Virus record (IMG/VR): IMGVR_UViG_3300033571_008540
Span: 1-36,093 of that record
DNA from: a virus
DNA: 36,093 nucleotides
Reading direction: 5' to 3' (one strand)
The notes beneath the pieces were generated by a model. It did no database searches and was not told where the DNA came from. It saw only the letters and a program-made list of their open reading frames with translations. The translations under genes were made by a program, and so were the position numbers. Shown one piece after another: positions 1-36,093 of the stretch (positions within the stretch are counted from its first letter, which is position 1; every line of letters begins with the position of its first letter).

Positions 1-980
1 AACAACCTGCCCCAGTATTGCATCTGCCCAGCTAGCGACATTGAAGGCTTCAAATCGCTGCCTGATTCAATGCACACGTCAACACCCGATGCCTGCGCTA
101 AATCAAACCCGAAGCCAAGTAAATCGCAAAACGTAATCACCTGAATTTCACGGCGTGCGTAATCCCTAAAAATACGGCGTTGCTCGCTTATATCCGTGTT
201 TCCGTCAACATGCACCGCGACAATGCCAGCGTTTCTAAATTGTTCCGCCACAAGCTGCGAGTGTTTAATACTAGCACACCGCACGATGTGTATCTTCCCT
301 TCGCAGCGCATCTGATAATCACGCACGCAATCACCGATAATCACGCCCTGTGCTTCCATGTAGCCAGCAAGTTCGCCCTTCGCATAATCGCCAGCCGTTA
401 CCTTAATCTGCGATAGGTCTGGCTTTGTTCTACCGTAAAACAGGCGATAATCCGAAAGCCGTTTATTCTCAATTAGCCACGAAATAGGTTTGCCAGTAAC
501 CATCGTATCATACCAGCAACCTAGCCCCTTGCCTGACATTTTCCACGGGGTAGCTGATAATCCTAGAATCCATGAATTAGCAGCTTGGTAATGTCGTATA
601 ACTGAATCTAGCGCACCATCGCCAAAATGCGTTTCGTCGGGAATCAATAAGTCACACTTCGGCAACTTATTTAATCGCCGCGCCATCGTGTCAATCATAC
701 CAATATACACACGGCTAAACGGGTTGTATGTACGCCCAGCCGCAATGAAGCTGTGCGGTATATCTAGCTCGCGGAATGTGTTGCTTGTTTGCTCTAACAA
801 CGCTTTCCTCGGCACTGTAAATATAATCGTGCGGTCTTTATTCTTCGCCGCTTCAATCATGTGCGTTGCCATTCTAGTTTTTCCTGAACCAGTGGCCGAT
901 ACCATAAGCACCAATTTACTTACACGCATCGCCTGCCGCGCATCGTCAACGAGTTCTAGCTGGTCGGAGTATAAATTCAA
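1..980 (-). CDS. SF2 DEAD/DEAH-type DNA helicase, N-terminal part (runs off the window start)
   Basis: Translation of the minus strand from a TTG at 980 gives about 326 residues with no stop to the window edge. Motifs seen: Walker A ATGSGKT (residues 29-35), a DETH box (115-118), motif III SAT (142-144) and a motif VI-like QMQYWGR just before the edge. These define an ATP-dependent superfamily 2 helicase of the kind found in phage replication or recombination modules. The TTG start overlaps the TGA stop of the upstream primase-helicase gene (TTGA), and a GGGGG-containing Shine-Dalgarno lies upstream, so the genes are translationally coupled. The missing C-terminus is supplied by the reading frame at 36093-35758, which continues with a zinc ribbon. 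TTG is chosen because the nearby ATG runs straight into a stop. Confidence 0.9.
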   Translation of the reverse strand, partial: MNLYSDQLELVDDARQAMRVSKLVLMVSATGSGKTRMATHMIEAAKNKDRTIIFTVPRKALLEQTSNTFRELDIPHSFIAAGRTYNPFSRVYIGMIDTMARRLNKLPKCDLLIPDETHFGDGALDSVIRHYQAANSWILGLSATPWKMSGKGLGCWYDTMVTGKPISWLIENKRLSDYRLFYGRTKPDLSQIKVTAGDYAKGELAGYMEAQGVIIGDCVRDYQMRCEGKIHIVRCASIKHSQLVAEQFRNAGIVAVHVDGNTDISEQRRIFRDYARREIQVITFCDLLGFGFDLAQASGVDVCIESGSDLKPSMSLAGQMQYWGRL

Positions 981-3649
981 ATTAACTCATCCCCCTTAAA
1001 CAACGCAATCGGCAAACTAACAGCGCTGGTTTTTACGCCCTTCGCAAAATACACGCATTTTTCTTTGCGGGCATCAGGCACATCAGATAACGTGCGGCTC
1101 CATTTGATTTCCCATTCTGTGCCGCGTAAAACCTTCGCTAAGTTATGGCTACGGCTGGCTATGCATACCGTGTCATCACGCACCGCTATTCCGTAATTTC
1201 TAAGCATTTTATCGGCGTTGCTATCGCGTTCGATGTGTACCATGCTAATTAGCTCACCTATCGACGTTTCAGCGCCGTTGCTGCCATAACGTAGCAGTGA
1301 TTCCGCAATTGTCTGCACCAAGCGCATTGGGTCGCCATCCTGCGCAATAATCGTGTGGTCTGTCCAGTCGTGGCTTGCAATCCATTTTTCTGCTTCCTCC
1401 GGCGATACCTTGCTAGTGCTGCCTAATAAATACAAGCCAGCTAGCATCGTGCCAATCTGCTGCGACGCTCTGGCAGCCTTCAAAACCTTGCGCGATGCCC
1501 GCTGAAACGTCCGGATATTCGCAAGCAAACTATCCATATTTTCTAGCGTTCTAGCTAATAATCGCTCACCGTAATCGTCCGTTATGGTGTCCTCTATGAA
1601 CGCCACCAAATCATCGTACTGTTGCATCGCATTGTGTGCGCGGTTTTTCTTAATCACCATGAAGCTAATGCGGCTTTCATCTGCGGTTTTATCAACGGGC
1701 GGATTGATGGCACTAAAGCACGCACAGAATCGCGCCTTAAACGGTTTCTGCCCGAATTTTTCAACCGTTGCACCCGTTGACGCCTTACGCGCTAACCCGA
1801 TAACGGCTGCCATGCTAGGCGATGGTTCGGCCTCATCAAACACAAGCGGCCTAGCATCATAACCCATCGCGCTGCGAATCGCTGGTTCAGTAGTGCCGCC
1901 ATCCACGTTAAGCGACATACTGCCTAGCACTGGCTTAATAATCCTATCCATCACCGTGGATTTGCCCGACTCAGCCTCGCCCGTAATATAAATGTGCGGC
2001 CTATACTGTAGCGCGGCGCATATCGGGGCAATCACTAGCCAGCCCGCAAGCAACGAGCCACTAAGTTTATTTTCCCAGCTTACGGCCTCGCATATCTTGC
2101 GTAATCTGTGCGCCTCGGCATTCGTAAGCGCGTTATCAGCCGGGCGCATTAAACGCGGCGCTGCTATATAGGTGTGGTGCGATAGATAATCCTTAAAATC
2201 TAGCCGCGTGCCGTTAACATACAGTGAATCGCCGCAGTGCAAAACAACATCACCATTATCAATCCAAGCACCACAACCGCGCACCCTATCGGCTTCTTTA
2301 TATACGCCGCGCTGTTTCGCCAGTTCTAGCAGTGCATTCATGGATAGCAGCGCTATCTTGCTGTGGCTGGCTTTCTCATAGCCAAATTTCGTTTCCCAGT
2401 TATACAGATTATCTAGCTGCAACAGGTTCTGCATGCTGTGCTGACTCGCCGCCAATGCCACAATCTGCCGAGCACCAAACGGGAAATAATAATAGATTCC
2501 GTCATTATAACCCAGCACGCGGTAGTTCATCCCAAAATCACCAACCTGAGATTTACGCACAGGCTCTAGAATTTCACCACCCACGGCGTTGGGGACGGCG
2601 GGAGAGAGAGCCTCGCCGTGGGTGGCTTCTTCAACAGTTTCCTGCCGAATTTCTAACGCATCATTGAATATGCGTTTAATTTCATCGTGGCCAAATCTAA
2701 CGGCGTAATCGTTCCAGTCTGTCGGTTTATCTGCTTCGTTGCCATTGAACGGCGGTTTAATAACCTGCGCGCCACCTATAGCCACAGCCGCTTGTTTAGC
2801 TAATTCTAAACCAACGTTCAAACAAAAATCATTCTCACGCCATTCCGTCCAGCGGTTATCATCGCCTGATAACTTTGCGCGGTCAACATTAGCTGGCCGT
2901 TTCTTAGGGTTGAACGTCCACTGGTCGTTGTCGGCGGCAAATACGAAGCGTGCATCTAGGTATTTCTTTTTAAGCGCCAATGCCACGTTTTTAAGGTTGC
3001 CAGCATCCATCGCTGCAAACACCGCATAACCCGTGGCTTCCTTAATCGATGCGCCTGTTGCCCAGCCCTCGCAGATTACAATAACGCTTAAATCGTCACC
3101 AGCCTTTGCAAACGGCGAATAACCGCCAGCCTTCTGCATCCCCTTATTATAGCCCTTCCATGATTCGGTGATGCGCTGGATGCCTAACATAGCGCCCGAT
3201 GAGGCATAAATCGGAATATATAACTCACCCGTCTTTGCCCTGATTCGCGCATTGTGCGGCTTGATATTCTTTGCGGTTAAGTAAGCGTGGCTGGTTGCTT
3301 TAGGCGCTTTATTGAACAAACGTTTAAGCCAGCCGTCCAGTTTTTTACGCCGCCTTGCATCAAACGCTGCACGCTCTTTCTTCTGATTCTCACGAACCGC
3401 ACGAATCTCTGCTAACTCGGTTTCGCTTAAATCCGTTTTTACCCCGCTTCGAACGCTGTGCGACTGCCCGCTTCGATGGTCAAAAAACCAGCCGCCATTC
3501 TCGTTCATGCAGTACGAAGCACGCTTTTCCGAACGCTTGTCACCGACCACCTGATAATAGCGCGCTTTATCGTCTAGCACTATATCGGCGTGGTTAACAG
3601 GCTCGCAACCAGCTTCACGCATTGCGTTGATTATGTTTTCGGGGGTCAC
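977..3649 (-). CDS. Toprim-primase / DUF927-type helicase fusion
   Basis: 890 residues. The N-terminal third has a Toprim fold signature: CEGWATGAS at 193-201 (catalytic Glu) and AADND at 238-242, as in DnaG/phage primases. The C-terminal half has a P-loop ATPase with Walker A GEAESGKST (557-565) and Walker B LVFDEAE (602-608), typical of DUF927-type helicases. It probably primes and unwinds DNA at the phage fork. No zinc-binding primase domain is obvious at the N-terminus, though the segment around 20-75 could be a recognition domain. The start is GTG at 3649, two bases after the stop of the upstream small gene, with only a weak Shine-Dalgarno. It overlaps the downstream helicase start by four bases. 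Confidence 0.88.
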   Translation of the reverse strand: MTPENIINAMREAGCEPVNHADIVLDDKARYYQVVGDKRSEKRASYCMNENGGWFFDHRSGQSHSVRSGVKTDLSETELAEIRAVRENQKKERAAFDARRRKKLDGWLKRLFNKAPKATSHAYLTAKNIKPHNARIRAKTGELYIPIYASSGAMLGIQRITESWKGYNKGMQKAGGYSPFAKAGDDLSVIVICEGWATGASIKEATGYAVFAAMDAGNLKNVALALKKKYLDARFVFAADNDQWTFNPKKRPANVDRAKLSGDDNRWTEWRENDFCLNVGLELAKQAAVAIGGAQVIKPPFNGNEADKPTDWNDYAVRFGHDEIKRIFNDALEIRQETVEEATHGEALSPAVPNAVGGEILEPVRKSQVGDFGMNYRVLGYNDGIYYYFPFGARQIVALAASQHSMQNLLQLDNLYNWETKFGYEKASHSKIALLSMNALLELAKQRGVYKEADRVRGCGAWIDNGDVVLHCGDSLYVNGTRLDFKDYLSHHTYIAAPRLMRPADNALTNAEAHRLRKICEAVSWENKLSGSLLAGWLVIAPICAALQYRPHIYITGEAESGKSTVMDRIIKPVLGSMSLNVDGGTTEPAIRSAMGYDARPLVFDEAEPSPSMAAVIGLARKASTGATVEKFGQKPFKARFCACFSAINPPVDKTADESRISFMVIKKNRAHNAMQQYDDLVAFIEDTITDDYGERLLARTLENMDSLLANIRTFQRASRKVLKAARASQQIGTMLAGLYLLGSTSKVSPEEAEKWIASHDWTDHTIIAQDGDPMRLVQTIAESLLRYGSNGAETSIGELISMVHIERDSNADKMLRNYGIAVRDDTVCIASRSHNLAKVLRGTEWEIKWSRTLSDVPDARKEKCVYFAKGVKTSAVSLPIALFKGDELI

Positions 3650-3651
3650 AG

Positions 3652-6483: not shown

Positions 6484-6822
6484 ATGGTTGATAAAAGAAT
6501 CAAGGCAGGCGGCGGAAAACCCGACAAAATCATTCGTGACGCGTTGTTAGCCGTTCAGCGTCAAGAACCTGAGCGCCTTAAACGCGTTGCTCGTGCTTGG
6601 TGGGATGCTGCCGAAACAGACCAAACAGCACGCAGCGCATTAGCTGATAGGCTTGATGGTAAAGCTATCCAACCCATCGCGCATTCTGTGACCGAAGAAA
6701 CCACTGATGAAGGTATGTTAGATGCAACAATCAGAGAGATTGCAGGCAAAGTTGGAATTGCTCTCGGCGCTAAAAAAGAAACACTCGCTGGTGATGAAGG
6801 ACAACTTCCGAGCGTACATTGA
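6484..6822 (+). CDS. Probable terminase small subunit
   Basis: 112 residues. Identification rests on position directly upstream of, and overlapping, the large terminase, and on a stretch ARSALADRLDGKAIQPI that resembles the 'LADRLDGKP' segment common in phage small-terminase and DUF5681-type proteins. The N-terminus is basic and Gly-rich (RIKAGGGKPDK); the middle is helical with WW residues. Small terminases bind the packaging site and hand DNA to the large subunit. No clear Shine-Dalgarno precedes the ATG, and no better start is evident. It overlaps the large subunit gene by 101 bases, which is long. Confidence 0.62.
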   Translation: MVDKRIKAGGGKPDKIIRDALLAVQRQEPERLKRVARAWWDAAETDQTARSALADRLDGKAIQPIAHSVTEETTDEGMLDATIREIAGKVGIALGAKKETLAGDEGQLPSVH

Positions 6823-8143
6823 GCACTTCAGCACTGAGCCGTCACCAGCCCGACACCACCAATTATTGATTGATAAGCTGCAAGATGTCGCTGATGGTAA
6901 AATCAAGCGCCTGATGGTGTTTATGCCGCCCGGTAGCGCTAAATCGTTCTATGCCAACGTGCAGTTTAGTTCGTGGTGGATGGCGCGGAATCCGGGTAAG
7001 AAACTCATAACTGCGAGTTATTCGCAAGAGGTGGCCGATAAATGGGGCAGGCGTGTTCGTGGCATCGTGAAGGATGAACAATTTGAACAAGCGTTCAATG
7101 TCGCACTAAGCGCAGAATCACAAGCCGCTGGTCGCTGGGCATTGAACGATGATACAGAATACTATGCAGTTGGCGTGGGCGGCTCGGTCACATCGTTTCG
7201 AGCTGATGGCGCTATTATCGATGACCCAGTGAAGGGGCGCGAGGAAGCCGAATCGGAAACCATGCGCGCTAAAATAAAGGAATGGTATCTCTCGGATTTC
7301 TGGACGCGCCTCAAGCCTGAATCGTTCGTGGTGTTAATCATGACGCGCTGGCATGAGGATGACTTAGCTGGATGGTTGCTAGAGCGTGCAAAGAATGGCG
7401 GCGAGCAGTGGGATGTCCTTTGCCTGCCAATGGAAGCCGATAGCGCTGATGACCCGATGGGGCGGCAGATTGGCGAACCGTTGTGGCCCCAGTGGTTTAC
7501 GCCGCACATGCTAACACAGGCGAAACTTGATGCGCGTAACTGGGCTTCATTGTATCAGCAGCGACCGTCACCTGAAACCGGGGCGTTCTTCGAGTCGCGC
7601 TGGTTCAAGTATTACGAAACGCTGCCCGATAATCTTCGGCTGTATGGTGCGAGCGATTACGCCGTGACTGATGGCGGTGGTGATTACACGGTTCACGGCA
7701 TCTTCGGGCTTGACACAGCGGATAACTTGTACGTTGTGGACTGGTGGCGTGGGCAGAAAGCAACGCTTGACTGGGTGGAGCAGCTCATCCTGATGATTAA
7801 GGCGCATCGGCCCGTCATGTGGTTTGAGGAGGCTGGCGTTATCTTCAAGAGCATGAACCCGATAATCACGAAACGGCAGCAAGAGGCTAACGCTTACTGC
7901 ACACGCAAGCAGATAACGCGCACTCGAAGCAAGGAAATGTCTGCACAGGCGATTCGTGGCCGTATGCAGCAAGGCAAGGTGTACCTACCTGCTGCCGCTG
8001 AATGGATGGCCTCGCTGCGTGCCGAAATGCTAACGTTCCCCAGCGGCAAACACGATGACCAAGTGGACGTTATGGCCTTGATTGGCATGGCGTTAGGTGA
8101 TATGAGCAATGACGTGACGCAGTATAAATCGATTATGATGTAG
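6722..8143 (+). CDS. terL: Terminase large subunit (packaging ATPase-nuclease)
   Basis: 473 residues. The ATPase domain has Walker A MPPGSAKS (residues 68-75), the TASYS segment after it (98-102) and Walker B ending in DD (167-168). The conserved SLYQQRPSP block (276-284) marks the linker to the RNase H-like nuclease domain, whose acidic residues are visible as SDYAVTD (311-317), FEEAG and HDDQVDV near the C-terminus. It cuts concatemeric DNA and pumps it through the portal. The ATG at 6722 has GAAGG nine bases upstream. A later in-frame ATG at 6794 would also keep the whole ATPase core. Confidence 0.92.
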   Translation: MQQSERLQAKLELLSALKKKHSLVMKDNFRAYIEHFSTEPSPARHHQLLIDKLQDVADGKIKRLMVFMPPGSAKSFYANVQFSSWWMARNPGKKLITASYSQEVADKWGRRVRGIVKDEQFEQAFNVALSAESQAAGRWALNDDTEYYAVGVGGSVTSFRADGAIIDDPVKGREEAESETMRAKIKEWYLSDFWTRLKPESFVVLIMTRWHEDDLAGWLLERAKNGGEQWDVLCLPMEADSADDPMGRQIGEPLWPQWFTPHMLTQAKLDARNWASLYQQRPSPETGAFFESRWFKYYETLPDNLRLYGASDYAVTDGGGDYTVHGIFGLDTADNLYVVDWWRGQKATLDWVEQLILMIKAHRPVMWFEEAGVIFKSMNPIITKRQQEANAYCTRKQITRTRSKEMSAQAIRGRMQQGKVYLPAAAEWMASLRAEMLTFPSGKHDDQVDVMALIGMALGDMSNDVTQYKSIMM

Positions 8144-8361: not shown

Positions 8362-8422
8362 CTCGCTTGTGCAGTCGCGGCGGTAACACGCATTAGGATA
8401 GCACCCACAACAAAGGGTGATT

Positions 8423-10654
8423 ATGTCTGAAGATATTTTAGGCCAAGCGAAAGCGCACTATGAATCAGCCCGTGATGGCTGGAAAGAAATCAACGAAAAA
8501 GCCCTTGAAGACCAGCAGTTTCTTAGCGATGAGCCTTATGCGCAGTGGGATGAGCGCGAAGCACAAGCCCGCATTGCAGTCAACCGCCCTGTTGTAGAAA
8601 TCGACCAGCTTAGCCAGTTCGTGCATCAGGTTGCTAACGATATTCGCCAGAACACGCCAGCGATTCACGTGCTACCTGTTGGTGACGATACCGACATCGA
8701 AACCGCTGAAATGATTGCAGGCCGCATTAAGGCCATTGAGTATAAATCCAACGCCGACGCCGCCTATGACATGGCCGCAGACTTCTCGATTCGTTCCTCG
8801 CTGGGCTTTATCCGCGTTGACCATTGTTACATCAACGATAAGGGCTTCGAGCAGGAATTGCGTATTAAACGCGTAGTCAATCCGCAAGCCATTCTGCTCG
8901 ACCCTAACAGCATTGAGCCAGACGGTTCGGACGCTAAGTATGGCTTCGTATTTGAGAAAATCACCGTAGCCGAGTTCAAGCGCAAATACCCCGATGCAAC
9001 TCCTATTTCGTTTGGTGAGGAGCCATCGTCGCGCATCCCCGGCGAGCAAGATGAGCTGACCATTGCCGAATATTACTACATCATCGACAACGACACGGAG
9101 CATGGTTTATTGAACGATGGTTCAAGCGAGCCAGTGGTCAAGGGCAAGAAATACAAATCAAAGCGCATGATTAACAAGCCCACCGTGATGCGTTGCTGGG
9201 TATCGGGCGAAGATATACTAACCGAGCCTTCCAAGTTCCCCGGCAAATACGTGCCACTAGTTCCTGTGTATGGCGAAGAAGCGTGGATTGGTGGCAAGCG
9301 CAATTTATACAGCCTGATTCGCAAGGCAAAATCGCCTGCCATGATGTATAACGCGCTGAAGTCATCGGAAACCGAGATTCTATTTAAGCAGCAGCAAGCG
9401 CCAGTGCAGGCAGCGGTTGGGCAGATGCGCGGGTTTGAGAATGACTGGCAAAAGCCCGATAAGGCGATGGTGCTGTACTATCACCAGACGGACGCAAGCG
9501 GACAGCCAGCACCACCCCCACAGCGTTTAGCGCCACCACAGGTTAGCAACGGTTACGCGCAGGCTTCGCTTGATGCTGAGGCAAACATCCGTAAATCGAT
9601 GGGCATGTACAACGCAGGCATTGGCCGTCGTGATGGTGACGCTTCAGGCGTTGCGCTTAAGCAGCTTGAAATGTCAGGTGATGTGGCCTCGCTGCACTTT
9701 GCTGATAACTTGAATCGTTCAGTTGCGCAGGTGGGCAAAATCATCGTGTGCGCGTTGCCTGAAATTGAAGATACGCCGCGCATCGTTTCTGTTGTTACGA
9801 AGGAAGATGAGATTAAATCCATTGGCATCAACGGCAAGATGACGCCAGACCAGAAACGCAGCTATGACTTCCGCACTGGTGAATATGATGTTCGCGTTGT
9901 TGCTGGCCCATCATTCACTACGCAGCGTCAAGAAGCTGGGCAGATGTATGCGGATTTAATTGGCAAGATGCCTGACCTGATGCCCATCATTGGCGACTTG
10001 GTGTTTAAATATCAGGATAACCCCGGCTCTCAGGCAATTAGCTCGCGCCTTAAGAAACTGGTTGACCCTAAGCTGCTTGACGAATCAGAGCGCGACAAAG
10101 AGCAGCCGGATATGGCGTTGCAGCAGATGCAGCAAGAGGCGCAACAGGTGATTGAAGCCGCACAACAGCAGATTCAGCAGCTAACTCAGGAATTGCAGGC
10201 TGCTAAAGCCGACAACGCAGTGAAGCAGGCTGATGTGCAGGTGAAAGGCGACGAGCTACAGCTTAAGGCCGCTGAGTTGCAGTTGAAGCAACAAGAGTTA
10301 GTTATGAAACGCGACGAGGCGGCGGCTAAGAATGAGCTAGAATATAAAAAGATGGAAGCCGACATCATTAAAACGCGCTTGGCAAGCAAATCATCGGTAA
10401 GCCCTGATTTAGCCATGACTGACCCCGATTTGCACGAATCAGGAGTTGCGCCAATAACTGTGGTGCTTGAGCAGTTTGCGAACCAGTCGCAACAACAAGC
10501 GCAGATTCTGGCTGAATCGTTGCAACAGATTGCCGCGGTTCAAGCGAATCAAGCCGAGCAACAGTCGCAGAGCATGGCGATGTTAGCGCAGGCGATTAAC
10601 ACCCCTAAGCAGGTAGTGCGGGATAAAGACGGCAACCTCATCGGGGTTAGATAA
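8423..10654 (+). CDS. Portal protein, P22 family
   Basis: 743 residues. The N-terminal half matches the P22-type portal: WDEREAQARIAVNRP, then a segment on NDIRQNTPAI and later RVVNPQAILLDPNS. Twelve copies form the ring through which DNA enters and leaves the head. From about residue 560 the protein becomes Gln/Ala/Glu-rich helix (QQMQQEAQQVIEAAQQQ and on), as expected for the long helical barrel of this family. The ATG at 8423 is chosen because AAGGG lies seven bases before it; a GTG two codons earlier is less likely. Its stop overlaps the next ATG (TAATG). Confidence 0.92.
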   Translation: MSEDILGQAKAHYESARDGWKEINEKALEDQQFLSDEPYAQWDEREAQARIAVNRPVVEIDQLSQFVHQVANDIRQNTPAIHVLPVGDDTDIETAEMIAGRIKAIEYKSNADAAYDMAADFSIRSSLGFIRVDHCYINDKGFEQELRIKRVVNPQAILLDPNSIEPDGSDAKYGFVFEKITVAEFKRKYPDATPISFGEEPSSRIPGEQDELTIAEYYYIIDNDTEHGLLNDGSSEPVVKGKKYKSKRMINKPTVMRCWVSGEDILTEPSKFPGKYVPLVPVYGEEAWIGGKRNLYSLIRKAKSPAMMYNALKSSETEILFKQQQAPVQAAVGQMRGFENDWQKPDKAMVLYYHQTDASGQPAPPPQRLAPPQVSNGYAQASLDAEANIRKSMGMYNAGIGRRDGDASGVALKQLEMSGDVASLHFADNLNRSVAQVGKIIVCALPEIEDTPRIVSVVTKEDEIKSIGINGKMTPDQKRSYDFRTGEYDVRVVAGPSFTTQRQEAGQMYADLIGKMPDLMPIIGDLVFKYQDNPGSQAISSRLKKLVDPKLLDESERDKEQPDMALQQMQQEAQQVIEAAQQQIQQLTQELQAAKADNAVKQADVQVKGDELQLKAAELQLKQQELVMKRDEAAAKNELEYKKMEADIIKTRLASKSSVSPDLAMTDPDLHESGVAPITVVLEQFANQSQQQAQILAESLQQIAAVQANQAEQQSQSMAMLAQAINTPKQVVRDKDGNLIGVR

Positions 10655-13362: not shown

Positions 13363-14244
13363 ATGGATATACAGGCAGTAATCGCTGAGGCGCAATCTAG
13401 CGCAGAAGCAGCGGAACTCGAAACCACGGCGGAAGCAACCGCAACGGATACCGAGTCACAACCAGCCGAATCAACGACTAAAGAAAGCGAAGATGTAAAA
13501 GAGGATTTGTCCAAAAAGACAGATGCCGAACTTACGGCTGAGCAACTTGCTAAGCGCGAACGTAATCGACAGTCGCACCTTAACCGACAACAGGCTAAGT
13601 TGCGCCGCGAAAACCAAGAGCTTAAACAGAAAATTCAGCAATTTTCGCAACAAGCACCGACACGACAACAGCCAGCCGATGGCGGCGCACCCCTACCACC
13701 TAACGAGGATAATTATAATACTTGGGAGGAATACAGGGTTGCTGAACGCAAGTATTATGAGGATTTGGCTGATTGGAAAATCGAGCAGAAATTATCAGCT
13801 AGAGATAACAAGGCGGCGGAATCAAAAGAAGCCGAGCAAGTAAACGAGTATAAATCTGAAAGACTAAACCAGCACGCCGAGCGTGAAGTTGAGTTTGCCA
13901 AGGAAGTGCCCGATTACGAAGCTACTGTTTACGGTGATTACGCTGACTTCATGAACAATTTACCGCTTCCCGTTGCGGAAGCCCTACTTGAGGCGGATAA
14001 CGCTAGTTTAGCGCTGTACGCATTAGCAAAAGAGGGCGTCTTAGACCAACTGGAAAACATGTCACCTTACCGCATTTCTATTGAAATCGGCAAGGCTGAG
14101 GTTCGCGGTGAAAAGTACCTTGTTAAGGATGTAGCTACAAGCGCTCCTCCACCAGTACATGCAGCAAGGGGAACGGCAACGCCGGGCAAATCCCTAGCTG
14201 ATATGCCGATGGATGAGCTTTTATCAAAATTTAGAAATAGATAA
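13363..14244 (+). CDS. Capsid scaffolding protein
   Basis: 293 residues just upstream of the coat gene. It is highly charged, with an Ala/Glu/Thr-rich disordered start, a basic helix at about 65-105 (AKRERNRQSHLNRQQAKLR), a second long helix (about 125-180) and a C-terminus ending in DELLSKFRNR. This composition and place match phage scaffolds that guide procapsid assembly and then leave the head. The short basic C-terminal helix would bind the coat protein, as in P22 (known for P22, inferred here). AAGGA precedes the ATG. Confidence 0.85.
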   Translation: MDIQAVIAEAQSSAEAAELETTAEATATDTESQPAESTTKESEDVKEDLSKKTDAELTAEQLAKRERNRQSHLNRQQAKLRRENQELKQKIQQFSQQAPTRQQPADGGAPLPPNEDNYNTWEEYRVAERKYYEDLADWKIEQKLSARDNKAAESKEAEQVNEYKSERLNQHAEREVEFAKEVPDYEATVYGDYADFMNNLPLPVAEALLEADNASLALYALAKEGVLDQLENMSPYRISIEIGKAEVRGEKYLVKDVATSAPPPVHAARGTATPGKSLADMPMDELLSKFRNR

Positions 14245-14255: not shown

Positions 14256-15509
14256 ATGGCTAACAATACTATTAATACAGTCAAAAATAATGCTGGCATT
14301 ATCGCTAAGATGATGGCTGGTGAATTAGTTGACAACCTGCAATTCTGCAATGCTATTAGCAAAGCAGACGCAAGCGACTATAAAGGTAAAAACGGCTACT
14401 CGGCTGGTGATACCGTGTACATCAACAAACCTGCGCGCGCAGAAGTAAGCAATGCCGGGTTTGACATTACGTCATCCATCGGCTCGCTGCTTGAGGAAAA
14501 AGTTGCAATGCCTCTTGACTTCACTGCAACTGCTAGTTTTGACCTCGATTCAGCAGAACTTGCTTCGACTGTGAATTTGGAAAGCGTGTACAACCGTTTC
14601 GTGAAGCCATACGCGCACAGCATGGCACAAAACATTGAACAGGGCTTTTTGACTCGCGCAATTAATAACACCGCTAACTTCGTCGGTACTCCCGGCTCGA
14701 CTTCGTTCAGCACCTCGCTGATGCTTTCGGCTGGCGTAAAACAGCAAGAGTTTCTGGCTCCTCAGGATGGCGAAAACTATGCTCTCTTGTCGCCTAAGGC
14801 TCAAGCTTCGGCACTGGATAACCGCAAATCGTTTGTGCAAGCAAGCGATGAGCTGGCGAAACAGTACAAGCGCGGCCTGATGGGTACTGCTGACGGCTTC
14901 ACCTACCTGAGCAACAACTTGCTGCCACGCGTTACTAACGGCGCTGACGTATCGGGTTTTGCAGTAGAAGCCTCGGTTGTAGCGATTAGCAACGGCATGG
15001 CAACCCTCGGTATTGATGGCGTGACTTCAGGCGCAACGATTCCAGCAGGCACCGTGTTTAGCATCAGCGGCGTGAACGCAGTACACCCACAAACGAAAGT
15101 TGACCTCGGCTACGAGCAACAGTTCGTTGTGACTGCGGCTGTAACGGAAACGTCTGGCAACAGCGTTACCTTGCAAATCAGCCCTGCAATTTACTACACG
15201 ACCACCGATTCGCGCCAAAACGTAAGCGCTGCTCCAGTTGATGAGGCTGCACTAACGATTTACAACGGCTCGGCTTCAACCACCTACACGAACAACCTTG
15301 TATTCCACAAGGATGCGTTCCGTATGGTTTCGGTGCCTCTGGTATTGCCTGAGAAAGCAGAATACGCTGCTCAGTACACCTACAAAGGTATCACGGTTGC
15401 AATCATCCGCGACTTCGACATTCTGAAGCGCCGCATGATTACCCGCCTTGACTTCCTCGGTGGCTTTGCTCCGGTGCGTCCAGAATGGGCTTGCCGTATC
15501 ACTGAGTAA
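14256..15509 (+). CDS. Major capsid protein, P22 coat family
   Basis: 417 residues, close to the P22 coat length (430). The N-terminus follows the P22 coat pattern: a helical NTINTVKNN start, then YSAGDTVYINKPAR and a long alpha stretch around AHSMAQNIEQGF. The C-terminus has LEKRRMITR-like DILKRRMITRLDFLGGFA, typical for the HK97 fold P-domain end. AAGGA lies nine bases upstream. It is followed by a strong hairpin, so its mRNA level may be set separately from downstream genes. Codon use is more G/C-ending than in the neighbours, fitting a highly expressed gene. Confidence 0.93.
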   Translation: MANNTINTVKNNAGIIAKMMAGELVDNLQFCNAISKADASDYKGKNGYSAGDTVYINKPARAEVSNAGFDITSSIGSLLEEKVAMPLDFTATASFDLDSAELASTVNLESVYNRFVKPYAHSMAQNIEQGFLTRAINNTANFVGTPGSTSFSTSLMLSAGVKQQEFLAPQDGENYALLSPKAQASALDNRKSFVQASDELAKQYKRGLMGTADGFTYLSNNLLPRVTNGADVSGFAVEASVVAISNGMATLGIDGVTSGATIPAGTVFSISGVNAVHPQTKVDLGYEQQFVVTAAVTETSGNSVTLQISPAIYYTTTDSRQNVSAAPVDEAALTIYNGSASTTYTNNLVFHKDAFRMVSVPLVLPEKAEYAAQYTYKGITVAIIRDFDILKRRMITRLDFLGGFAPVRPEWACRITE

Positions 15510-15567: not shown

Positions 15568-16101
15568 ATGGCTAAAAATACAGTAAAATACGAAGGCACG
15601 TTTGGTGCCGATAACCGCAAGGTGATTAACGATAACTTCGCGGATATTTCGCGGGTTACAACCGCATTCAGCCAAACAAGCAGCACCACCCTTGCAAACG
15701 TTGTCGGGCTTTTGACCGATACGTTACAACCTGGTGTTTACGCTGTAGACATTAATCTTATCACGACTTCAGGTGCATCAGGCGGCGTCAAAGTTGCCCT
15801 CAAATGGGGCACTGCTTCGATGATTACCGCAACGGCCTTGTCTGTACAAGCAAACGCCGCTGCTGCAACCGCTAACACGACCTTCACAACTTCAACGGAT
15901 GCAGCATCGATTCTTGCAAGCACCGCAGCGATTGTGAACGTGCGTATTACTGGAACCATCACCGTAGCACTGGCTGGCACGTTGCAATTACAGGCTGCAC
16001 AGAACGCATCGGATGCCACAGCAACCACGGTTGCTCTGGGTTCAACGATAAGCTTTGCTGCAATCGGTGCAACTACGCCGCTTAGCTCTGCTATTGTATA
16101 G
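15568..16101 (+). CDS. Probable head decoration protein
   Basis: 177 residues, Ala/Thr/Val-rich, almost free of Cys and Trp, and beta-rich by pattern (PGVYAVDINLITTSG, VNVRITGTITVALAGTLQLQ). Such composition in the gene after the coat protein is typical of capsid decoration or stabilising proteins. AGAGGAAA precedes the ATG. No named family recognised. Confidence 0.62.
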   Translation: MAKNTVKYEGTFGADNRKVINDNFADISRVTTAFSQTSSTTLANVVGLLTDTLQPGVYAVDINLITTSGASGGVKVALKWGTASMITATALSVQANAAAATANTTFTTSTDAASILASTAAIVNVRITGTITVALAGTLQLQAAQNASDATATTVALGSTISFAAIGATTPLSSAIV

Positions 16102-16403: not shown

Positions 16404-17093
16404 ATGACCACAGCCCGCGACATTATAACAAGGTCGCTTCAGAAAATAGGCGCGATTGTGAAGAACGAAGTTCCCGCTGCTGATGAAGCAAACGATGGCT
16501 TAAATTCTCTCAACGCGCTTATTTCTTCATGGAGTAATGATTCGCTGAATATTTACGCCAGAACGTGGGAAACATTCTCGCTTACTGGCGCATCAAGTTA
16601 TACTATCGGCACAGGCGGCAACTTCAACACGGCACGCCCTACTAATATCGTGGCGGCGTACCTTAGAAGCGGCACGATTGATTACCCGATAGATATTATC
16701 GACGATGCTGCCTATGTGAGCATTTCGTATAAAAACTTGCAGGGCATTCCAGAGTTTTTGAATTATGATAACGGCTACCCACTAGGCCGCATTCGTTTAT
16801 ATCCCCTAGACAACGCGGGTTATAGCTTATTCTTGCTAACTGAAAAAGCCGTTAGCCAGTTTGCAACACTAGACACAGATATGTCGCTTCCCGATGGATG
16901 GGAGCGTGCGCTTATTTACAATCTAGCCTTAGAACTAGCCCCCGAATATAGCCAAAAGCCCGATGCGTATATCGTAAAAATCGCCAATGATTCACTTGGC
17001 GCGATTCGGCAAAAAGTAGCGCAAGTCCGCACAATGGACGCATACCCTAGTAACTTAGCTGTAAGGAATATATTTAGCGGCTGGAGATACTAG
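16404..17093 (+). CDS. Tail accessory / head-tail adaptor, P22 gp4-like
   Basis: 229 residues. The start TTARDIITRSLQKIGAI...AADEANDGLNSLNALISSW matches the helical N-terminus of P22 gp4-type tail accessory factors, which bind the portal after packaging. It is longer than P22 gp4 (166 residues); the extra part is beta-like (FSLTGASSYTIGTGG). The stop shares a base with the next GTG. The position before the gp10-like gene is the P22 order. Confidence 0.8.
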   Translation: MTTARDIITRSLQKIGAIVKNEVPAADEANDGLNSLNALISSWSNDSLNIYARTWETFSLTGASSYTIGTGGNFNTARPTNIVAAYLRSGTIDYPIDIIDDAAYVSISYKNLQGIPEFLNYDNGYPLGRIRLYPLDNAGYSLFLLTEKAVSQFATLDTDMSLPDGWERALIYNLALELAPEYSQKPDAYIVKIANDSLGAIRQKVAQVRTMDAYPSNLAVRNIFSGWRY

Positions 17094-18493
17094 TGAAGAT
17101 TAAGCTTGTCGGCCCCTCATATCAACAGCGCTCGCTACCATTTGACGCGCAACGAACAATCAATCTATTCCCGATTACAGATAAGGATGGCTCAGATGTT
17201 GCGTCATTACTTGGAACGCCCGGTTTATCTTTGTTTGCCACGTGTGGTGCAGGTGTGGTTCGCGGCGGATTCGCTTCTGGTAATGGTCGCGTGTTCTTTG
17301 TTTCAAATAACCAGCTTTACGAATTAGATAGCGGCGGCGGTTCAACTGTACGCGGCACGATTACTTCATTCTCTGGAGCCGTGACGTTTGCTGATAATGG
17401 TTTGCAACTAGGAATATGCGATGGGGATAAAGCTTACACGTTTACTTACGCAAGCAACGTATTCGCACAAATAACGGATGCGGATTTTCCAACCGTTGTG
17501 GGAACCATAGATTTTATCGATGGCTATTTTGTTGTCAACGAAAAAGACACTGGCAAGTTTTATATTTCGGCGCTGTACGATGGCACGTCATGGGCTGCAC
17601 TGGATTTTGCAACGGCTGAATCCTCGCCAGACAGATTAGTGCGCGTTGTTAATTTCGTGGGGCAGCTTGGCTTGCTTGGCGAAAGCACGCTAGAAATATG
17701 GCGCAATACAGGGGATAGCACGTTTCCATTTTCGCGCATTTCTGGCTCTACACCTGTTGGCACTGTATCGCCATACACGGTGATTAGCATCGACACATCG
17801 GTGTATTGGGTTGGCAGCAACAATCAAGGCAACGGCGTAGTTTATCAAGCGCAAGGGTTCACGCCTACTAGAATTTCCACAGAAACCATTGAACGCCTGT
17901 TGCAAGCCGAGCCTAATCCTGAGTTATTGCGCTCGTGGACCTATCAGCAAGATGGTCACGTTTTCTTAGTAATTACAGGCGGCGCGCTGGAAACTTCGCT
18001 AGTTTATGATTTGTCAACTGGTTTATGGCACGAACGGGCGTTTTTAAATGAATTTGGCGGGTATGAGCAACACCTAGGAAGCTGCTGCATTTATGCGTTC
18101 GGCAAGCACTTGGTAGGCGATAGAACTAACGGCAACATTTACGAGATGAGCCTAACCGTTTACAGCGACAACGGCAGCGCCATACAAAGACGCCGAGTTT
18201 ATACGCATCTGCTTGACGAATTAAAGCCTGTGCGCTACAATCAACTCACGATAGGTTTTGAGCAAGGTGTCGGTTTGCAAACTGGACAAGGCTCTAACCC
18301 TCTGGTGTCTTTACGAATCAGTAAAGATGGCGCAAGAACGTGGAGTAATTACTACACCACATCCATTGGCGCAGTGGGCAATTACACAACAGAAGTCACG
18401 TTTAGGCGCTTAGGCATTCAACAGATATGCACATTTGAGCTTACTATATCCGACCCTGTTAAGGTTGCTATCACGGGGAGCTATTTGCAATGA
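17093..18493 (+). CDS. Packaged DNA stabilisation protein, P22 gp10-like
   Basis: 466 residues, very near P22 gp10 (472). Signature N-terminus: YQQRSLPFDAQRTINLFP followed by SLLGTPGLSLFA, then repeated beta-propeller-like strands (NNQLYELDSGG, VGQLGLLGESTLEIWRNTGD, SVYWVGSNNQGNGVVYQAQG). In P22 this hexamer plugs the portal and carries the tail needle. GTG start with GGAG eight bases upstream, overlapping the gp4 stop by one base. Confidence 0.9.
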   Translation: MKIKLVGPSYQQRSLPFDAQRTINLFPITDKDGSDVASLLGTPGLSLFATCGAGVVRGGFASGNGRVFFVSNNQLYELDSGGGSTVRGTITSFSGAVTFADNGLQLGICDGDKAYTFTYASNVFAQITDADFPTVVGTIDFIDGYFVVNEKDTGKFYISALYDGTSWAALDFATAESSPDRLVRVVNFVGQLGLLGESTLEIWRNTGDSTFPFSRISGSTPVGTVSPYTVISIDTSVYWVGSNNQGNGVVYQAQGFTPTRISTETIERLLQAEPNPELLRSWTYQQDGHVFLVITGGALETSLVYDLSTGLWHERAFLNEFGGYEQHLGSCCIYAFGKHLVGDRTNGNIYEMSLTVYSDNGSAIQRRRVYTHLLDELKPVRYNQLTIGFEQGVGLQTGQGSNPLVSLRISKDGARTWSNYYTTSIGAVGNYTTEVTFRRLGIQQICTFELTISDPVKVAITGSYLQ

Positions 18494-26294: not shown

Positions 26295-26773
26295 TTGCGT
26301 TATTATCGACGTTATTAGGGTTTTTAGCGAGCGCCGCGCCTAAGGTTTTTGAGTCGTTCCAAGATAGGCGCGACAAGGCGCACGAGCTTAAAATGCTCGA
26401 AATCCAAGCCAAGATGCAGGCCGAGAAATCTAGCGCTGATTTAGATGCGATTTTACTAAACGCCGTTAGCGCGCAGAATGTTGCAACACAGGCAAGCTAT
26501 CAAGCGGATATGGCGGCGAATAAGGAAGTCGGCAACCGCAAGATTATCGCGTTTTCTGCTAGCGTGCGGCCTGTTATTACCTACGCATTTTTCCTGCTTT
26601 ATGCGCTGGTTAAATTCGCGCAGTTTTACCTTATTATTAACCCAGCGCTACCGTGGCAGGAATCAGGCAATTACGCGCAGGCATTGGTGGCAATATGGGG
26701 CGAGGAAGATATGGGGCTGTTTTCTGCGGTGCTAGCGTTCTGGTTTGGCAATCGCATCATGCAACGGAAATAA
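26291..26773 (+). CDS. Putative holin, two or more membrane spans
   Basis: 160 residues. An N-terminal hydrophobic helix (IALLSTLLGFLASAAP), then a charged coiled-coil-like stretch (RRDKAHELKMLEIQAKMQAE) and two C-terminal hydrophobic segments (VRPVITYAFFLLYALVKFAQFYLI; MGLFSAVLAFWFGNRIM). This layout, with an RP just before the first C-terminal span, is typical of phage holins of the three-span type. It would form the membrane hole that releases the endolysin encoded next. AGGGG precedes the ATG. Confidence 0.75.
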   Translation: MIALLSTLLGFLASAAPKVFESFQDRRDKAHELKMLEIQAKMQAEKSSADLDAILLNAVSAQNVATQASYQADMAANKEVGNRKIIAFSASVRPVITYAFFLLYALVKFAQFYLIINPALPWQESGNYAQALVAIWGEEDMGLFSAVLAFWFGNRIMQRK

Positions 26774-26774
26774 T

Positions 26775-27206
26775 ATGCGCCTGTCTAAACGTGGCGCCGA
26801 TTTAATCAAGCATTACGAAGGCTATGAGTTAGAGCCTTATATTTGCCCCGCTGGCTATTGGACTATCGGCTGGGGGCATCGTATTAGCGACGAGGAGCGT
26901 TTTAAGTTATCGGCAGGAATATCGATAACAGAGGCGCAACAGCTATTTGATTATGACATAGCGCGGTTTGAGCGCGGAGTTTTGCGACTAATAACGCGGC
27001 CTATGACACATGGGCAGTTTGATGCGCTGGTATCGTTTAGCTTCAATTTAGGGCTTGGCAGGTTGCAGGCGTCAACGCTGCGAGCAAAATTCAACCGTGG
27101 CGAATATGCAGGCGATGAATTGCCTAAATGGGTATTTAGTAAGGGCATCAAGCTAGCGGGGTTGGTAAAACGCCGCTATGCCGAAAAAGCGCTGTTTGAC
27201 GCATAA
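26775..27206 (+). CDS. Endolysin, GH24 lysozyme
   Basis: 143 residues. GH24 (T4/P22 lysozyme-type) fold with the catalytic segment HYEGYELEPY..C.AGYWTIGWGH: Glu15 is the general acid and Thr30 aligns with T4 Thr26. The position of T4 Asp20 is Cys24, a substitution I know from many phage lysozymes (LCPAG type). It hydrolyses the peptidoglycan backbone. There is no signal peptide or SAR segment, so export needs a holin. The ATG at 26775 is chosen (GGA about eight bases upstream); the frame is open 30 bases further only via a TTG overlapping the holin gene. Confidence 0.9.
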   Translation: MRLSKRGADLIKHYEGYELEPYICPAGYWTIGWGHRISDEERFKLSAGISITEAQQLFDYDIARFERGVLRLITRPMTHGQFDALVSFSFNLGLGRLQASTLRAKFNRGEYAGDELPKWVFSKGIKLAGLVKRRYAEKALFDA

Positions 27207-32439: not shown

Positions 32440-32799
32440 CTACTCCTTCATCGCTGCGTTGAGTTCGGTTAGCACTTGACGTGCGAGCTTGATTTTAGCG
32501 CCGCTGTCAGTTTCATAGCCTGAGAAAACAGCTATCGCGCCTTGCGCCTTCAATACTATAGCCTCCAACCGCTTAATCTTCTCGGCCTGTGCTGCAACAA
32601 CGCGTGCCATTAGTGGGGCAGCGGACTCAAAAGCAGCCCGCGCAAGTCTTTTATAATCAAACAAATCTGTTTCTTCTATAATTTGCAGAATATAATCTTC
32701 ATCGGCGCTTGTATTTTGCTCAGATGCAATCTTGTAATCCTCCGCTTTAATAGCATCGCACATCAGCTTCACTGCTTCGTCTATCTCAGTCTGGTTCAT
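32440..32799 (-). CDS. Unknown helical 119-residue protein
   Basis: Start at 32799 (MNQTEIDEAVKLM), with AGGAGA and an ATGA overlap with the gene above. Helices at 4-20 and 38-115, Ala/Lys/Glu-rich (AAQAEKIKRLEAIVLKAQGAI). Resembles small phage proteins that form coiled-coil dimers. Not recognised. Confidence 0.62.
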   Translation of the reverse strand: MNQTEIDEAVKLMCDAIKAEDYKIASEQNTSADEDYILQIIEETDLFDYKRLARAAFESAAPLMARVVAAQAEKIKRLEAIVLKAQGAIAVFSGYETDSGAKIKLARQVLTELNAAMKE

Positions 32800-33506
32800 A
32801 CTTTCTCCTGTGTAATCGCTGTATCTTGTGGATTGTGTCTGCCCGACTCTGCATGCCACGTTTGCGGTTGCATGACGCGGTAAGCCTTCAACGCTTCTGG
32901 GTTAGGCTTCACAAAGCTGTCATCCTTCCATAGAATCCTATTGTTCGGCATGGCTGCAATCTGGCCGCTGCCGTCTTCGAGAAGCAACAGGTGGTAGCAC
33001 TTATGCTCTGGCGGGTACTGGCTAAAACCGTTGTCTGTGTGGTCAAGTGTGAACCAGTAGCTTGCTGGTATCATTCGGCCATCTGGTGTTCGGTATTCGC
33101 AGCTCATTTCGCGTAGGTACTCGTACTGCACCGTTGAAAAATCCCAGCCGTGGCAATCCCAGCATTGCAGGTCACTAATTGGATGCGGCGCTGGCTTCGG
33201 GTTTAATTCTACAGAGTCGCCATTTTTCACGCGATGGTAATCTTCTTCAGATAACGCGTACACCATAAACGGGCGCATAACATTCCTTGGTTTTTCCCAG
33301 CGCAGCTTATGAATAGGTATGCGCGCCCACTGCGCCCCGCTCTCGCATAGAATCGAGAAGTGAAGAGCGCGACTTGGAATGCTAGTAACGCCAATAATCA
33401 CACACGGCTCAAATCCCAATGAGTCGTCTAACCCACGCAAGATATCGGTTTGCACATACCCATATAAATGTTGAGGTACAGATGCGTTAAGTGTGTAGTG
33501 TGTCAA
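32796..33506 (-). CDS. Conserved-looking phage protein of unknown function
   Basis: 236 residues from a TTG at 33506, selected for its AGGGGAG Shine-Dalgarno six bases upstream; an in-frame TTG at 33557 falls at the possible promoter and has none. N-terminal half with PSRALHFSILCESGAQWARIPIHKLRW is a segment I recall from hypothetical phage proteins, without known role. Middle has CWDCHGWDFS (Cys, His) then ASYWFTLDHTDNG...EHKCYHLLLLEDG.GQIAAMPNNRI. His and Cys count suggests metal binding. Overlaps the next gene by ATGA. Confidence 0.65.
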   Translation of the reverse strand: MTHYTLNASVPQHLYGYVQTDILRGLDDSLGFEPCVIIGVTSIPSRALHFSILCESGAQWARIPIHKLRWEKPRNVMRPFMVYALSEEDYHRVKNGDSVELNPKPAPHPISDLQCWDCHGWDFSTVQYEYLREMSCEYRTPDGRMIPASYWFTLDHTDNGFSQYPPEHKCYHLLLLEDGSGQIAAMPNNRILWKDDSFVKPNPEALKAYRVMQPQTWHAESGRHNPQDTAITQEKV

Positions 33507-33530
33507 CGTTTTCTCCCCTATCCCGTTTTC

Positions 33531-33557
33531 AATATAGCAACCGTTGCACCAAGTCAA
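33531..33557 (-). promoter_or_regulatory. Possible internal leftward promoter
   Basis: TTGACT (33552-33557) with TATATT (33531-33536) on the minus strand, spaced 15 bases; TATTGA at 17 is an alternative. It lies between the XRE regulator gene and the 236-residue gene, next to the site a regulator might use. The spacing is short, so it is uncertain. Confidence 0.32.
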
Positions 33558-33560
33558 TCA

Positions 33561-33761: not shown

Positions 33762-34369
33762 GCTGGAATTTCCTCGTCGTTAAAATTAATCTCGGTGGTG
33801 GCGTTTATAATATCGTTATACAGCCCAGAATATGCATTTCTGAAGCGCTCAATAACTGCGGCCTCACGTTGCAAAATCGCGTCAACGTCACCTCCCGCTT
33901 GAATCTCTGCAATAATCTCTGCGGCCTTCTTTTTGGCGGCATCGGATTTGTCCACCTTAGGCGCACTCGCAGATTCCACTAACAACTTAACCGTGTATGG
34001 CTTTTTGCTTTGCTTGCTTGCCGTTAGCGACATGGTTAAATCGTGCGGAATATCCGACATATGGCTAATGCGTATGCCGCCCACTTCAGCGCCCGCCCAT
34101 GTAACCTTAGGGTCACGAAATAGCGTTAGTTTCTTGCCTACCCATTTTTCGGCATACTTACCCCACGCATGCACAAAAACCCGCGTCATGCTTTTGCATG
34201 GATAGTACGGCTTGCCATTGTCACCGATATAGCTGACCGCCACGGGTTGCTCACCTTGCCGCTTGCTAACCTTGCTAATTTCAACCGTTATCGGGCCAGC
34301 AATCAAATCATCAGCGTTTAGCTGGTCTGATTTCGGTTTAATGGCATCAGTTACATCAATTTGCGTCAT
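33758..34369 (-). CDS. Conserved phage protein paired with YqaJ exonuclease
   Basis: 203 residues. It shows a pattern I recognise from unannotated phage proteins: LNADDLIAGPITVEIS, GKPYYPCKSMTRVFVHAWGKYAEKWVGKKLTLFRDPKVTWAG, then VGGIRISHMSDI; the C-terminal third is charged helix ending in an acidic tail. The first part looks like a beta-barrel, perhaps OB-like. Coupled by ATGA to the YqaJ exonuclease, so a single-strand annealing or ssDNA-binding partner is plausible, as in Red-type pairs, but no named annealing family signature is visible. GAGGAG precedes the ATG. Confidence 0.68.
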   Translation of the reverse strand: MTQIDVTDAIKPKSDQLNADDLIAGPITVEISKVSKRQGEQPVAVSYIGDNGKPYYPCKSMTRVFVHAWGKYAEKWVGKKLTLFRDPKVTWAGAEVGGIRISHMSDIPHDLTMSLTASKQSKKPYTVKLLVESASAPKVDKSDAAKKKAAEIIAEIQAGGDVDAILQREAAVIERFRNAYSGLYNDIINATTEINFNDEEIPA

Positions 34370-35049
34370 ACAACAATCTCCTCTTCAATTTTACGTTCGG
34401 TTGGTATTAGGCGGTAGTTTTTATCCGCTAATTTTGCTTCATATTCCGCCATAAGTTTGCTTAGCTTTTCATGAAATACGGTTGCGGCTTCAACAATCGC
34501 AGCCTGTATCTTTTCGTCTGGATATACGCGCAACGTAAGCATGGGCAACCCCGCGCTATAGGTGATGTAGTCAATCCATTTGCGCTGCGTCACCAGCAAG
34601 CCAGTCTGTAGCTGTAGCATATATTCATCAGGCGCGACGTTTTCCAAAATACTCTGCACCTGAAACTTCTGGCGGCGTGACTTGATTTCTATTAGGCCAT
34701 CTTCACCAACTAAACCATCAGGTGAGAAGCCAATGGTAAAGCCGTGGTCATCGTTTAGCACTATCCCGCATTCATCCACTTGCTCGTAATTATCCGAATA
34801 AATATCACGCGCATCAGCTTCGTCAGACATACCGCGCAACATATCTTCGCTAATATAGCTAGGCTCGGTAAAGCCAGTGATGCGTTGCGCCAGTAATTCA
34901 TAAACGTGGGCGCGCTCTTTATCGTTGCTGGCAATTTTTAGCGTAGGCGTTAAAATAGTTTTAACCTCGCTTGCCGTAAGTATGCCGCAGCGTATAGCGT
35001 GCCATTCATCCGAACCCTGCACGATGTCGTTTCTGTAAATAATAGCCAC
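34366..35049 (-). CDS. YqaJ-family phage recombination exonuclease
   Basis: 227 residues. The lambda exonuclease/YqaJ fold is clear: GSDEWHAIRCGILTASE near the start (12-28), FSPDGL with Asp111, GLIEIKS with Glu121 and Lys123, and YMLQLQ with Gln146. These form the two-metal active site for 5'-3' degradation of dsDNA ends. GTG start at 35049, sharing a base with the stop of the small membrane gene, with GGGG upstream. Overlaps the partner gene by ATGA. Confidence 0.92.
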   Translation of the reverse strand: MAIIYRNDIVQGSDEWHAIRCGILTASEVKTILTPTLKIASNDKERAHVYELLAQRITGFTEPSYISEDMLRGMSDEADARDIYSDNYEQVDECGIVLNDDHGFTIGFSPDGLVGEDGLIEIKSRRQKFQVQSILENVAPDEYMLQLQTGLLVTQRKWIDYITYSAGLPMLTLRVYPDEKIQAAIVEAATVFHEKLSKLMAEYEAKLADKNYRLIPTERKIEEEIVV

Positions 35050-35138
35050 TATAACCCCACGTTGTTAATAATTAACCAAGCAAACACAGAGCCGATTGCC
35101 ATAGTGGCGGCAAGCAAAACAATATCGAAATTAGACAT
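35049..35138 (-). CDS. 29-residue membrane peptide
   Basis: ATG at 35138, TAG at 35049-35051, with TTGGAGGTTACA upstream, one of the best ribosome sites in the window. The peptide is a single hydrophobic helix (IVLLAATMAIGSVFAWLII) with a short polar start. It overlaps the gene above by eight bases and the exonuclease GTG by one. Besides any own role it may mainly couple translation into the exonuclease gene. Confidence 0.55.
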   Translation of the reverse strand: MSNFDIVLLAATMAIGSVFAWLIINNVGL

Positions 35139-35361
35139 TGTAACCTCCAACAATAATATACATAACGCGGTAACCTTGTTCGTAAATCTTGATACCGCGC
35201 TTTTTGTCTAGCCACTTCTGCGCTTTGGGCGAGCGTGCCTTATCCTGTTTTGCGGCTTTCAAGATTATGTCTAAAAAATACCTAGCCTGAATTTTCGTTC
35301 TAAAACTATTTGGCATCATGTGCCGTTCAACTTCTGAAACTTTTACGATTCTATATAACAT
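35131..35361 (-). CDS. Unknown basic 76-residue protein
   Basis: GAGGGGACG precedes the ATG. Helical Lys/Arg/Ala-rich middle (RTKIQARYFLDIILKAAKQDKARSPKAQKWLDKKRG) and a beta-like C-terminus (YEQGYRVMYIIVGGYNV). First gene below the promoter at 35384-35412, so it may be strongly made; a DNA-binding role is possible from its charge. Not recognised. Confidence 0.6.
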   Translation of the reverse strand: MLYRIVKVSEVERHMMPNSFRTKIQARYFLDIILKAAKQDKARSPKAQKWLDKKRGIKIYEQGYRVMYIIVGGYNV

Positions 35362-35383
35362 AAGCGTCCCCTCTCATGCAATC

Positions 35384-35412
35384 TATATATAGCAATGTTT
35401 GCCACGCGTCAA
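35384..35412 (-). promoter_or_regulatory. Leftward promoter for the recombination genes
   Basis: TTGACG (35407-35412) and TATATA (35384-35389) at 17 bases on the minus strand. It lies in the 55-base gap after the VRR-NUC gene and reads the recombination block, giving it expression independent of the long early transcript. Confidence 0.6.
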
Positions 35413-35416
35413 GCGG

Positions 35417-35761
35417 TTATTGCACTATTTTTTTTGCGTCCTCTGTACTGCGCGCAACGCCAGCTTTTCCGCCATTTTGTAGCACAAACGCAATAAAATC
35501 TTTCTGTGCAATCGACGGATAGCCCTTATCGGTTTTTACTTCAATCGCTGTAAATATAGGCACAGTCTGGCCTACCATATCAGGAGTAATTGTAACCCGC
35601 GTAAACCCGATTAAATCCGATGCGCCAGACGCAAGCAAACCAGCGGCGATTCTGCGCTTGCCGTCCTCGCTGCGAAAATTCCCGCGCACGTTTTTCCAGA
35701 TAACGCAATCGTTTTTTGCAGCGTCTAACCGTATCGTTTGCACTATGTTGCTCTCGCTCAT
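35417..35761 (-). CDS. VRR-NUC domain nuclease
   Basis: 114 residues, the whole protein being one stand-alone VRR-NUC domain. Motifs: GLLASGASDLIGF (Asp49), FTAIEVKT (Glu74, Lys76) and AQKDF (Gln86), the PD-(D/E)XK metal site; the end has GGKAGVARS. Stand-alone VRR-NUC proteins act as structure-specific nucleases and sit beside helicases in phages. Its start overlaps the stop of the helicase gene by ATGA. Confidence 0.88.
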   Translation of the reverse strand: MSESNIVQTIRLDAAKNDCVIWKNVRGNFRSEDGKRRIAAGLLASGASDLIGFTRVTITPDMVGQTVPIFTAIEVKTDKGYPSIAQKDFIAFVLQNGGKAGVARSTEDAKKIVQ

Positions 35762-36093
35762 TTTGCGCCCCTTGCCTTTATAACGTTAATTGCCCAGCCG
35801 TGTGGGTTCTTCATTCCGCGCTGTTTACCTAGCGCCACCAGCTCGTTATAACTACGCGCTGCACCTTGCGCCTTTTTACGTTCCATTTTTTGCGCTTGCC
35901 TATCTTCCTTTGTAGCCTCGATTAGCTCGCCCTCGACTTCATCAATTTCGCGTGAATTAATCGGATAAATATAGCCACAATTCGGGCAAACTGGCGCTGG
36001 CCTGTGTGCTGTGTAGCATTTGTCGCACTGCCTAACTGCAACCGTTTTTTCACTGGATGCGCGTTTAGTCTGCACCCTATCTTCTAGCGTCCA
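35758..36093 (-). CDS. SF2 helicase, C-terminal part (enters from the window end)
   Basis: The minus strand is open from the edge: 111 residues starting WTLEDRVQTKR, where 'WTLE.R' is a common linker near the end of phage DEAD/DEAH helicases. A zinc ribbon follows (CDKC about 15 residues later, then CPNCG), then an acidic and basic helical tail. I take it as the second half of the helicase at 980-1. Joined directly, the halves are out of frame, so the linking stretch is not in the window. The first in-frame Met is at 36075, but it lies inside the helicase pattern, so it is not the real start. Overlaps the VRR-NUC gene by ATGA. Confidence 0.85.
   Translation of the reverse strand, partial: WTLEDRVQTKRASSEKTVAVRQCDKCYTAHRPAPVCPNCGYIYPINSREIDEVEGELIEATKEDRQAQKMERKKAQGAARSYNELVALGKQRGMKNPHGWAINVIKARGAK

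Follow-up and report, generated by a model that had tools for sequence, protein, structure and literature searches.

A survey covering about 4,000 viruses found that about one genome in ten has eliminated a recognition site completely or nearly so. The sites concerned were almost exclusively those of orthodox Type II enzymes, the genomes were mainly those of non-temperate dsDNA phages, and GATC was scarce in each of the 46 phages with hosts carrying GATC-specific Type IIM enzymes (PMC6286503). Phage phiX174 is without any GATC, and putting GATC back in a variant lowers its mutation rate eightfold; the absence is explained there by mismatch repair, though the authors call its cause unclear; cutting of under-methylated phage DNA by MutH is among the proposals that this report cites (PMC5014478, citing Deschavanne and Radman 1991).

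We describe here the loss of GATC, and of several other restriction sites, from the viral record IMGVR_UViG_3300033571_008540, the window analysed being the whole record of 36,093 bp. The window is a near-complete, circularly permuted dsDNA genome of a P22-like tailed phage of about 36.18 kb. A single helicase gene is split across both ends, with the N-terminal part at 3..980 (minus strand) cut by the low end and the C-terminal part at 35758..36093 (minus strand) cut by the high end, and about 84-90 nt (~0.1 kb) are absent between the two, an estimate supplied by the homologues in the related viral records L217, L219 and L167, where the helicase is in one piece. Because the ends nearly join within one gene, GATC is missing from practically the whole genome, and the window is not just a stretch of some larger genome that happens to be poor in GATC.

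The gene order of terminase, portal, scaffold, coat, adaptor and gp10 is that of a P22-like podovirus. On the plus strand lie the genes for the terminase large subunit (6722..8143; phrog_38, 4e-101), the portal protein (8417..10654; phrog_156, 7e-107, with P22-like portals among the named matches), the scaffolding protein (13363..14244; phrog_8865), the major capsid protein of the P22 coat type (14256..15509; phrog_283, 1e-59, with P22 coat matches), the packaged-DNA stabilisation or head closure protein (gp10, Hc3; 17093..18493; phrog_578, 1e-109) and a lysozyme (26745..27206; PF00959, 2e-36). The minus strand encodes a primase/replication protein with a Toprim match (977..3649; phrog_35358, 3e-106; PF13362) and a YqaJ-like exonuclease (34366..35049; PF09588, 1e-15). 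We also note a small protein at 32796-33557 (minus strand), situated among small genes, that matches phrog_3704, a family labelled ferredoxin; a PADLOC search of ten small proteins of the window gave no match. No integrase was found in this near-complete genome with its tailed-phage head and packaging genes, and the phage is probably not temperate, a lifestyle predicted from gene content.

An automated count finds no GATC in the window (1..36093) on either strand, the word being self-complementary, in agreement with the first-pass annotation, which had reached the same result by eye and had put the chance expectation at about 140. Base composition gives 140.5, and the other models give somewhat fewer, with 124.8 expected from a maximal-order Markov model and 80.9 from a first-order Markov model of dinucleotides, for which the Poisson probability of zero is about 7e-36. 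The tetranucleotide count with Markov expectation that the annotation had suggested shows GATC to be the only tetranucleotide counted fewer than 15 times, and its remark that GATT, GATG and GATA are common is borne out by counts of 193, 176 and 150 respectively. Nor do the encoded proteins dictate the loss, since shuffling of synonymous codons in the 33.1 kb of coding sequence leads to an expectation of 95±7 GATC, with a minimum of 74 in 300 shuffles, and zero was never reached in 1000. In the three codon registers the shuffle expects about 45, 7 and 43 sites respectively; none is present, and each register has therefore been cleared.

GATC is not the only word affected. The first-pass annotation held the loss to be specific to GATC, and this does not stand, because CCWGG, GGNCC, RCCGGY, RGGCCY and CAGCTG are also nearly or wholly gone. 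A scan of degenerate palindromes in the window finds a single CCWGG (EcoRII/Dcm-type, at 15730..15734) where about 56 are expected, and RCCGGY 2 against 45, RGGCCY 0 against 25 and CAGCTG 0 against 20; together with GATC (0/125) all of these have observed/expected ratios below 0.1 with more than 15 expected, the thresholds that Rusinov et al. 2018 apply to site elimination (CB < 0.1, expected > 15), although our ratios use Markov or codon expectations and not their exact CB formula. GGNCC occurs 12 times against 74 expected, including a single GGWCC (AvaII-type, at 17937..17941) against about 21, and CCGG 34 times against 102. Codon shuffling yields the same picture, with observed/expected counts of 1/41.5 for CCWGG, 10/49 for GGNCC, 2/34 for RCCGGY, 0/20 for RGGCCY and 0/13 for CAGCTG, lows that were reached in 0 of 1000 shuffles, and with GGNNCC at 26/72 and CCGG at 32/85 in coding sequence. 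The control words are within or near the ordinary range, CCSGG being 18/24.7 (not significant) and GANTC 96/83, and CATG and CTAG are near normal by the same shuffle. That CCWGG is lost but its sister CCSGG and GANTC are near normal argues that selection reads exact recognition sequences at the level of the motif. GATC and CCWGG thus constitute at least two independent targets of four to five bases. The list of six-base sites is less secure because a CC..GG or GG..CC frame is common to several of the words, and part of it may come from one pressure and not from many enzymes.

The comparison with related phages that the first-pass annotation called for indicates that the GATC-free state has been kept up. 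Three viral contigs from other metagenomes (L161, L169 and L170), which may derive from one phage or from several, align with the window at 80-89% DNA identity, and the 11.6 kb of alignments contains no GATC despite 1,910 substitutions. Permuting these substitutions within the same codon position and base class predicts about 31 GATC (3.5+8.2+14.1+5.3), although L169 and L170 overlap on the window and the counts are not fully independent. CATG, ACGT and AGCT, which served as control words, are as expected, L169 is also without CCWGG and GGNCC beyond chance, and the single GATC in L170 (at its base 868) lies outside the aligned part. Because relatives that have diverged by 11-20% remain GATC-free, selection has acted during the divergence of these phages and not only long ago.

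We consider it highly probable that long selection by several orthodox Type II restriction systems of the hosts removed their recognition sites from the phage genome. From the sites lost we infer the enzymes concerned, which would include one or more GATC cutters of MboI, DpnII or Sau3AI specificity, an EcoRII-type CCWGG cutter, and enzymes that cut within GGNCC, RCCGGY, RGGCCY, CAGCTG or similar sequences. Phage DNA would arrive unmodified and any molecule with a site would risk cleavage, such that point mutations destroying a site would be favoured and newly arisen sites purged. Nearly all sites could be removed by synonymous change, as by replacing the Asp codon GAT with GAC before C, the Ile codon ATC with ATT or ATA after G, or by choosing other Gly or Arg codons ahead of Ser; the proteins would then be unaffected and the loss nearly costless at the protein level. 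Strong selection, for example by GATC-cutting restriction enzymes, had been proposed in the first-pass annotation and is the most likely reading of the GATC loss, in that the absence survives the codon controls, is kept in relatives and is paralleled in phages K and T7. The part of that proposal that does not hold is a purely Dam-linked or GATC-only pressure, which is insufficient because other sites have been lost as well.

Searches of the window for four methyltransferase families (PF02086, PF05869, PF01555 and PF00145, covering Dam, D12, N6/N4 and C5 enzymes) gave no match, and on this search self-methylation by a phage-encoded methyltransferase or Dam is an improbable cause of the loss. 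Across the relatives, several of which are represented by fragments, methyltransferase presence and GATC level follow no consistent pattern: among those with normal GATC none was found in L172, L196 and L198 and one in L219, and the GATC-depleted L167 and L171 each carry one. The best terminase relatives in bacterial genomes are 48-49% identical and located in unclassified Proteobacteria bins, too distant for assigning a host, and the named phage relatives of the capsid, portal and gp10 point in no single direction, having hosts from Rhodoferax to Vibrio.

There are several other explanations to consider. The one that survives best involves methyl-directed mismatch repair, either because fast-replicating phage DNA is under-methylated and its unmethylated GATC sites are nicked by MutH, or because loss of GATC raises the mutation rate by escaping repair. 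Selection of this kind has been proposed for phiX174 and enterobacteriophages, and the GATC depletion taken alone would fit it too. The window shares with phiX174 the entire absence of GATC (PMC5014478), but phiX174 is a 5.4-kb ssDNA phage, its case is interpreted through mismatch repair and involves no loss of several other sites, whereas the loss in the window is not limited to GATC. Mismatch repair predicts loss of GATC only and leaves the disappearance of CCWGG, GGNCC, RCCGGY, RGGCCY and CAGCTG unaccounted for; we therefore regard it as an unlikely explanation of the whole profile, although it could add to the loss of GATC.

Avoidance of modification-dependent nucleases, such as DpnI-type enzymes acting on G6mATC and SauUSI- or McrBC-like enzymes acting on methylated CCWGG, would have the attraction of linking GATC and CCWGG as a Dam/Dcm pair, with methylation by one host exposing the phage to such nucleases in the next. 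The alternation of DpnI, DpnII and DpnIII cassettes in Streptococcus (PMC12707154) is in keeping with this, but RCCGGY, RGGCCY and CAGCTG are left unexplained and avoidance of the sites of modification-dependent enzymes was weak in the viral survey cited above (PMC6286503), and we think it very improbable. Slightly less probable again is a general aversion to palindromes, or an effect of composition or codon usage, in which no restriction enzyme takes part. Many palindromes are indeed mildly low and words framed by CC and GG are low as a group, but CTAG, ATAT and TATA show no shortage or are in excess, GCGC is over-represented against the codon shuffle, CCSGG and GANTC occur at about their expected numbers, and the complete absence of GATC holds up against codon-preserving controls; the shuffle and the CCWGG/CCSGG contrast lead us to reject a composition or codon-usage effect.

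As the motifs of Dam and Dcm, GATC and CCWGG are known to be difficult for long-read base calling. An artefact, whether through digestion of the library with a GATC enzyme or through systematic miscalls at methylated GATC and CCWGG, is nonetheless scarcely credible and is rejected, as the three relatives from other metagenomes agree on the loss, no one-mismatch neighbour holds the missing counts (GGTC and GACC are at 0.56 and 0.75 of first-order expectation), the replacement words are varied, and a 36 kb contig would survive a GATC digest only if truly without a site. At places where GATC occurs in relatives and the encoded residues agree, the window carries varied synonymous words (GACC 14 times, GTTC 6, AATT 4 and GATT 4), a tabulation that is illustrative only since the residues differ at 211 of 248 places.

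Returning to selection by host restriction enzymes, the wider distribution of site loss is informative. In a tree of 49 relatives built from the portal, coat, adaptor and gp10 proteins, and with depletion defined as GATC below 0.25 of expectation, 10 of the 13 rows of the window's clade are depleted and none of the 36 others, and depletion needs at least 4 changes on the tree, where shuffled labels need 9.2. The tree was quickly built and some of its rows are sparsely filled; although the 13-row clade is starred (99), the deeper order is not relied on. GATC depletion is clade-level yet labile, with normal GATC inside the clade in L172 (107/128) and L198 (16/16), and depletion of GTAC (1/47) and GANTC (2/45) instead in L199. 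A patchwork of this kind would be expected if exposure to host restriction systems changed. We tentatively suggest that the lost-site sets of the clade are inherited but swapped between lineages (GATC, CCWGG and GGNCC in the window, GTAC and GANTC in L199), that the set in the window converges on that of T7 (GATC, CCWGG and RCCGGY), and that such a set might act as a fossil record of the restriction systems of hosts. If true, this could aid host prediction for uncultivated phages.

Losses of other sites are also seen. GANTC is strongly depleted in L032 (3/41) and L219 (3/36) as well as in L199, which may reflect CcrM- or HinfI-type systems in their hosts. Among named P22-like phages, GTAC is nearly absent from Pan3 (L185, 1/38), Pam1 (L186, 0/37) and MW202483 (L180, 1/87), two of the three being Pseudanabaena phages and the other a spring-water phage. 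Two integrase-bearing virus contigs (L065 and L066) have zero GATC in 20-21 kb where about 71 are expected, which is unusual because temperate phages seldom eliminate sites.

The site loss in the window is clear-cut, and evasion of bacterial restriction enzymes, its highly probable cause, is already well known. No principle is changed, since about a tenth of phage genomes had previously been described as showing complete or near-complete elimination. What it adds is a statistically strong multi-site case in an uncultivated phage clade, whose labile site profile provides a testable lead to the restriction systems of the host. Among described phages, Staphylococcus phage K has likewise wholly lost GATC over a lytic phage genome and so avoids Sau3A (PMC6532042), although it is an unrelated 140-kb phage of a Gram-positive host for which that cognate enzyme is known. 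Escherichia phage T7, a lytic podovirus of about 40 kb, is similarly depleted by the same method (GATC 6/141, CCWGG 2/83, RCCGGY 3/26), but it retains the majority of its GGNCC (79/108) and the full expected number of RGGCCY (19/19) and differs in gene set, whereas the window combines zero GATC with a P22-type head. In named P22-like phages GATC reaches 0.3-1.2 of its expected count. The P22-like podoviruses Rhodoferax phage P26218 and DSL-LC05 have portal, P22 coat and stabilisation proteins ~28-40% identical to those of the window, but their GATC stands at 0.57 and 0.82 of expectation respectively. DSL-LC05 (L176) has kept GATC and lost CCWGG instead (1/106), and Thalassomonas phage BA3 (L189) also has CCWGG nearly gone (1/37) with GATC near normal, these being independent single-site losses in other P22-like phages.
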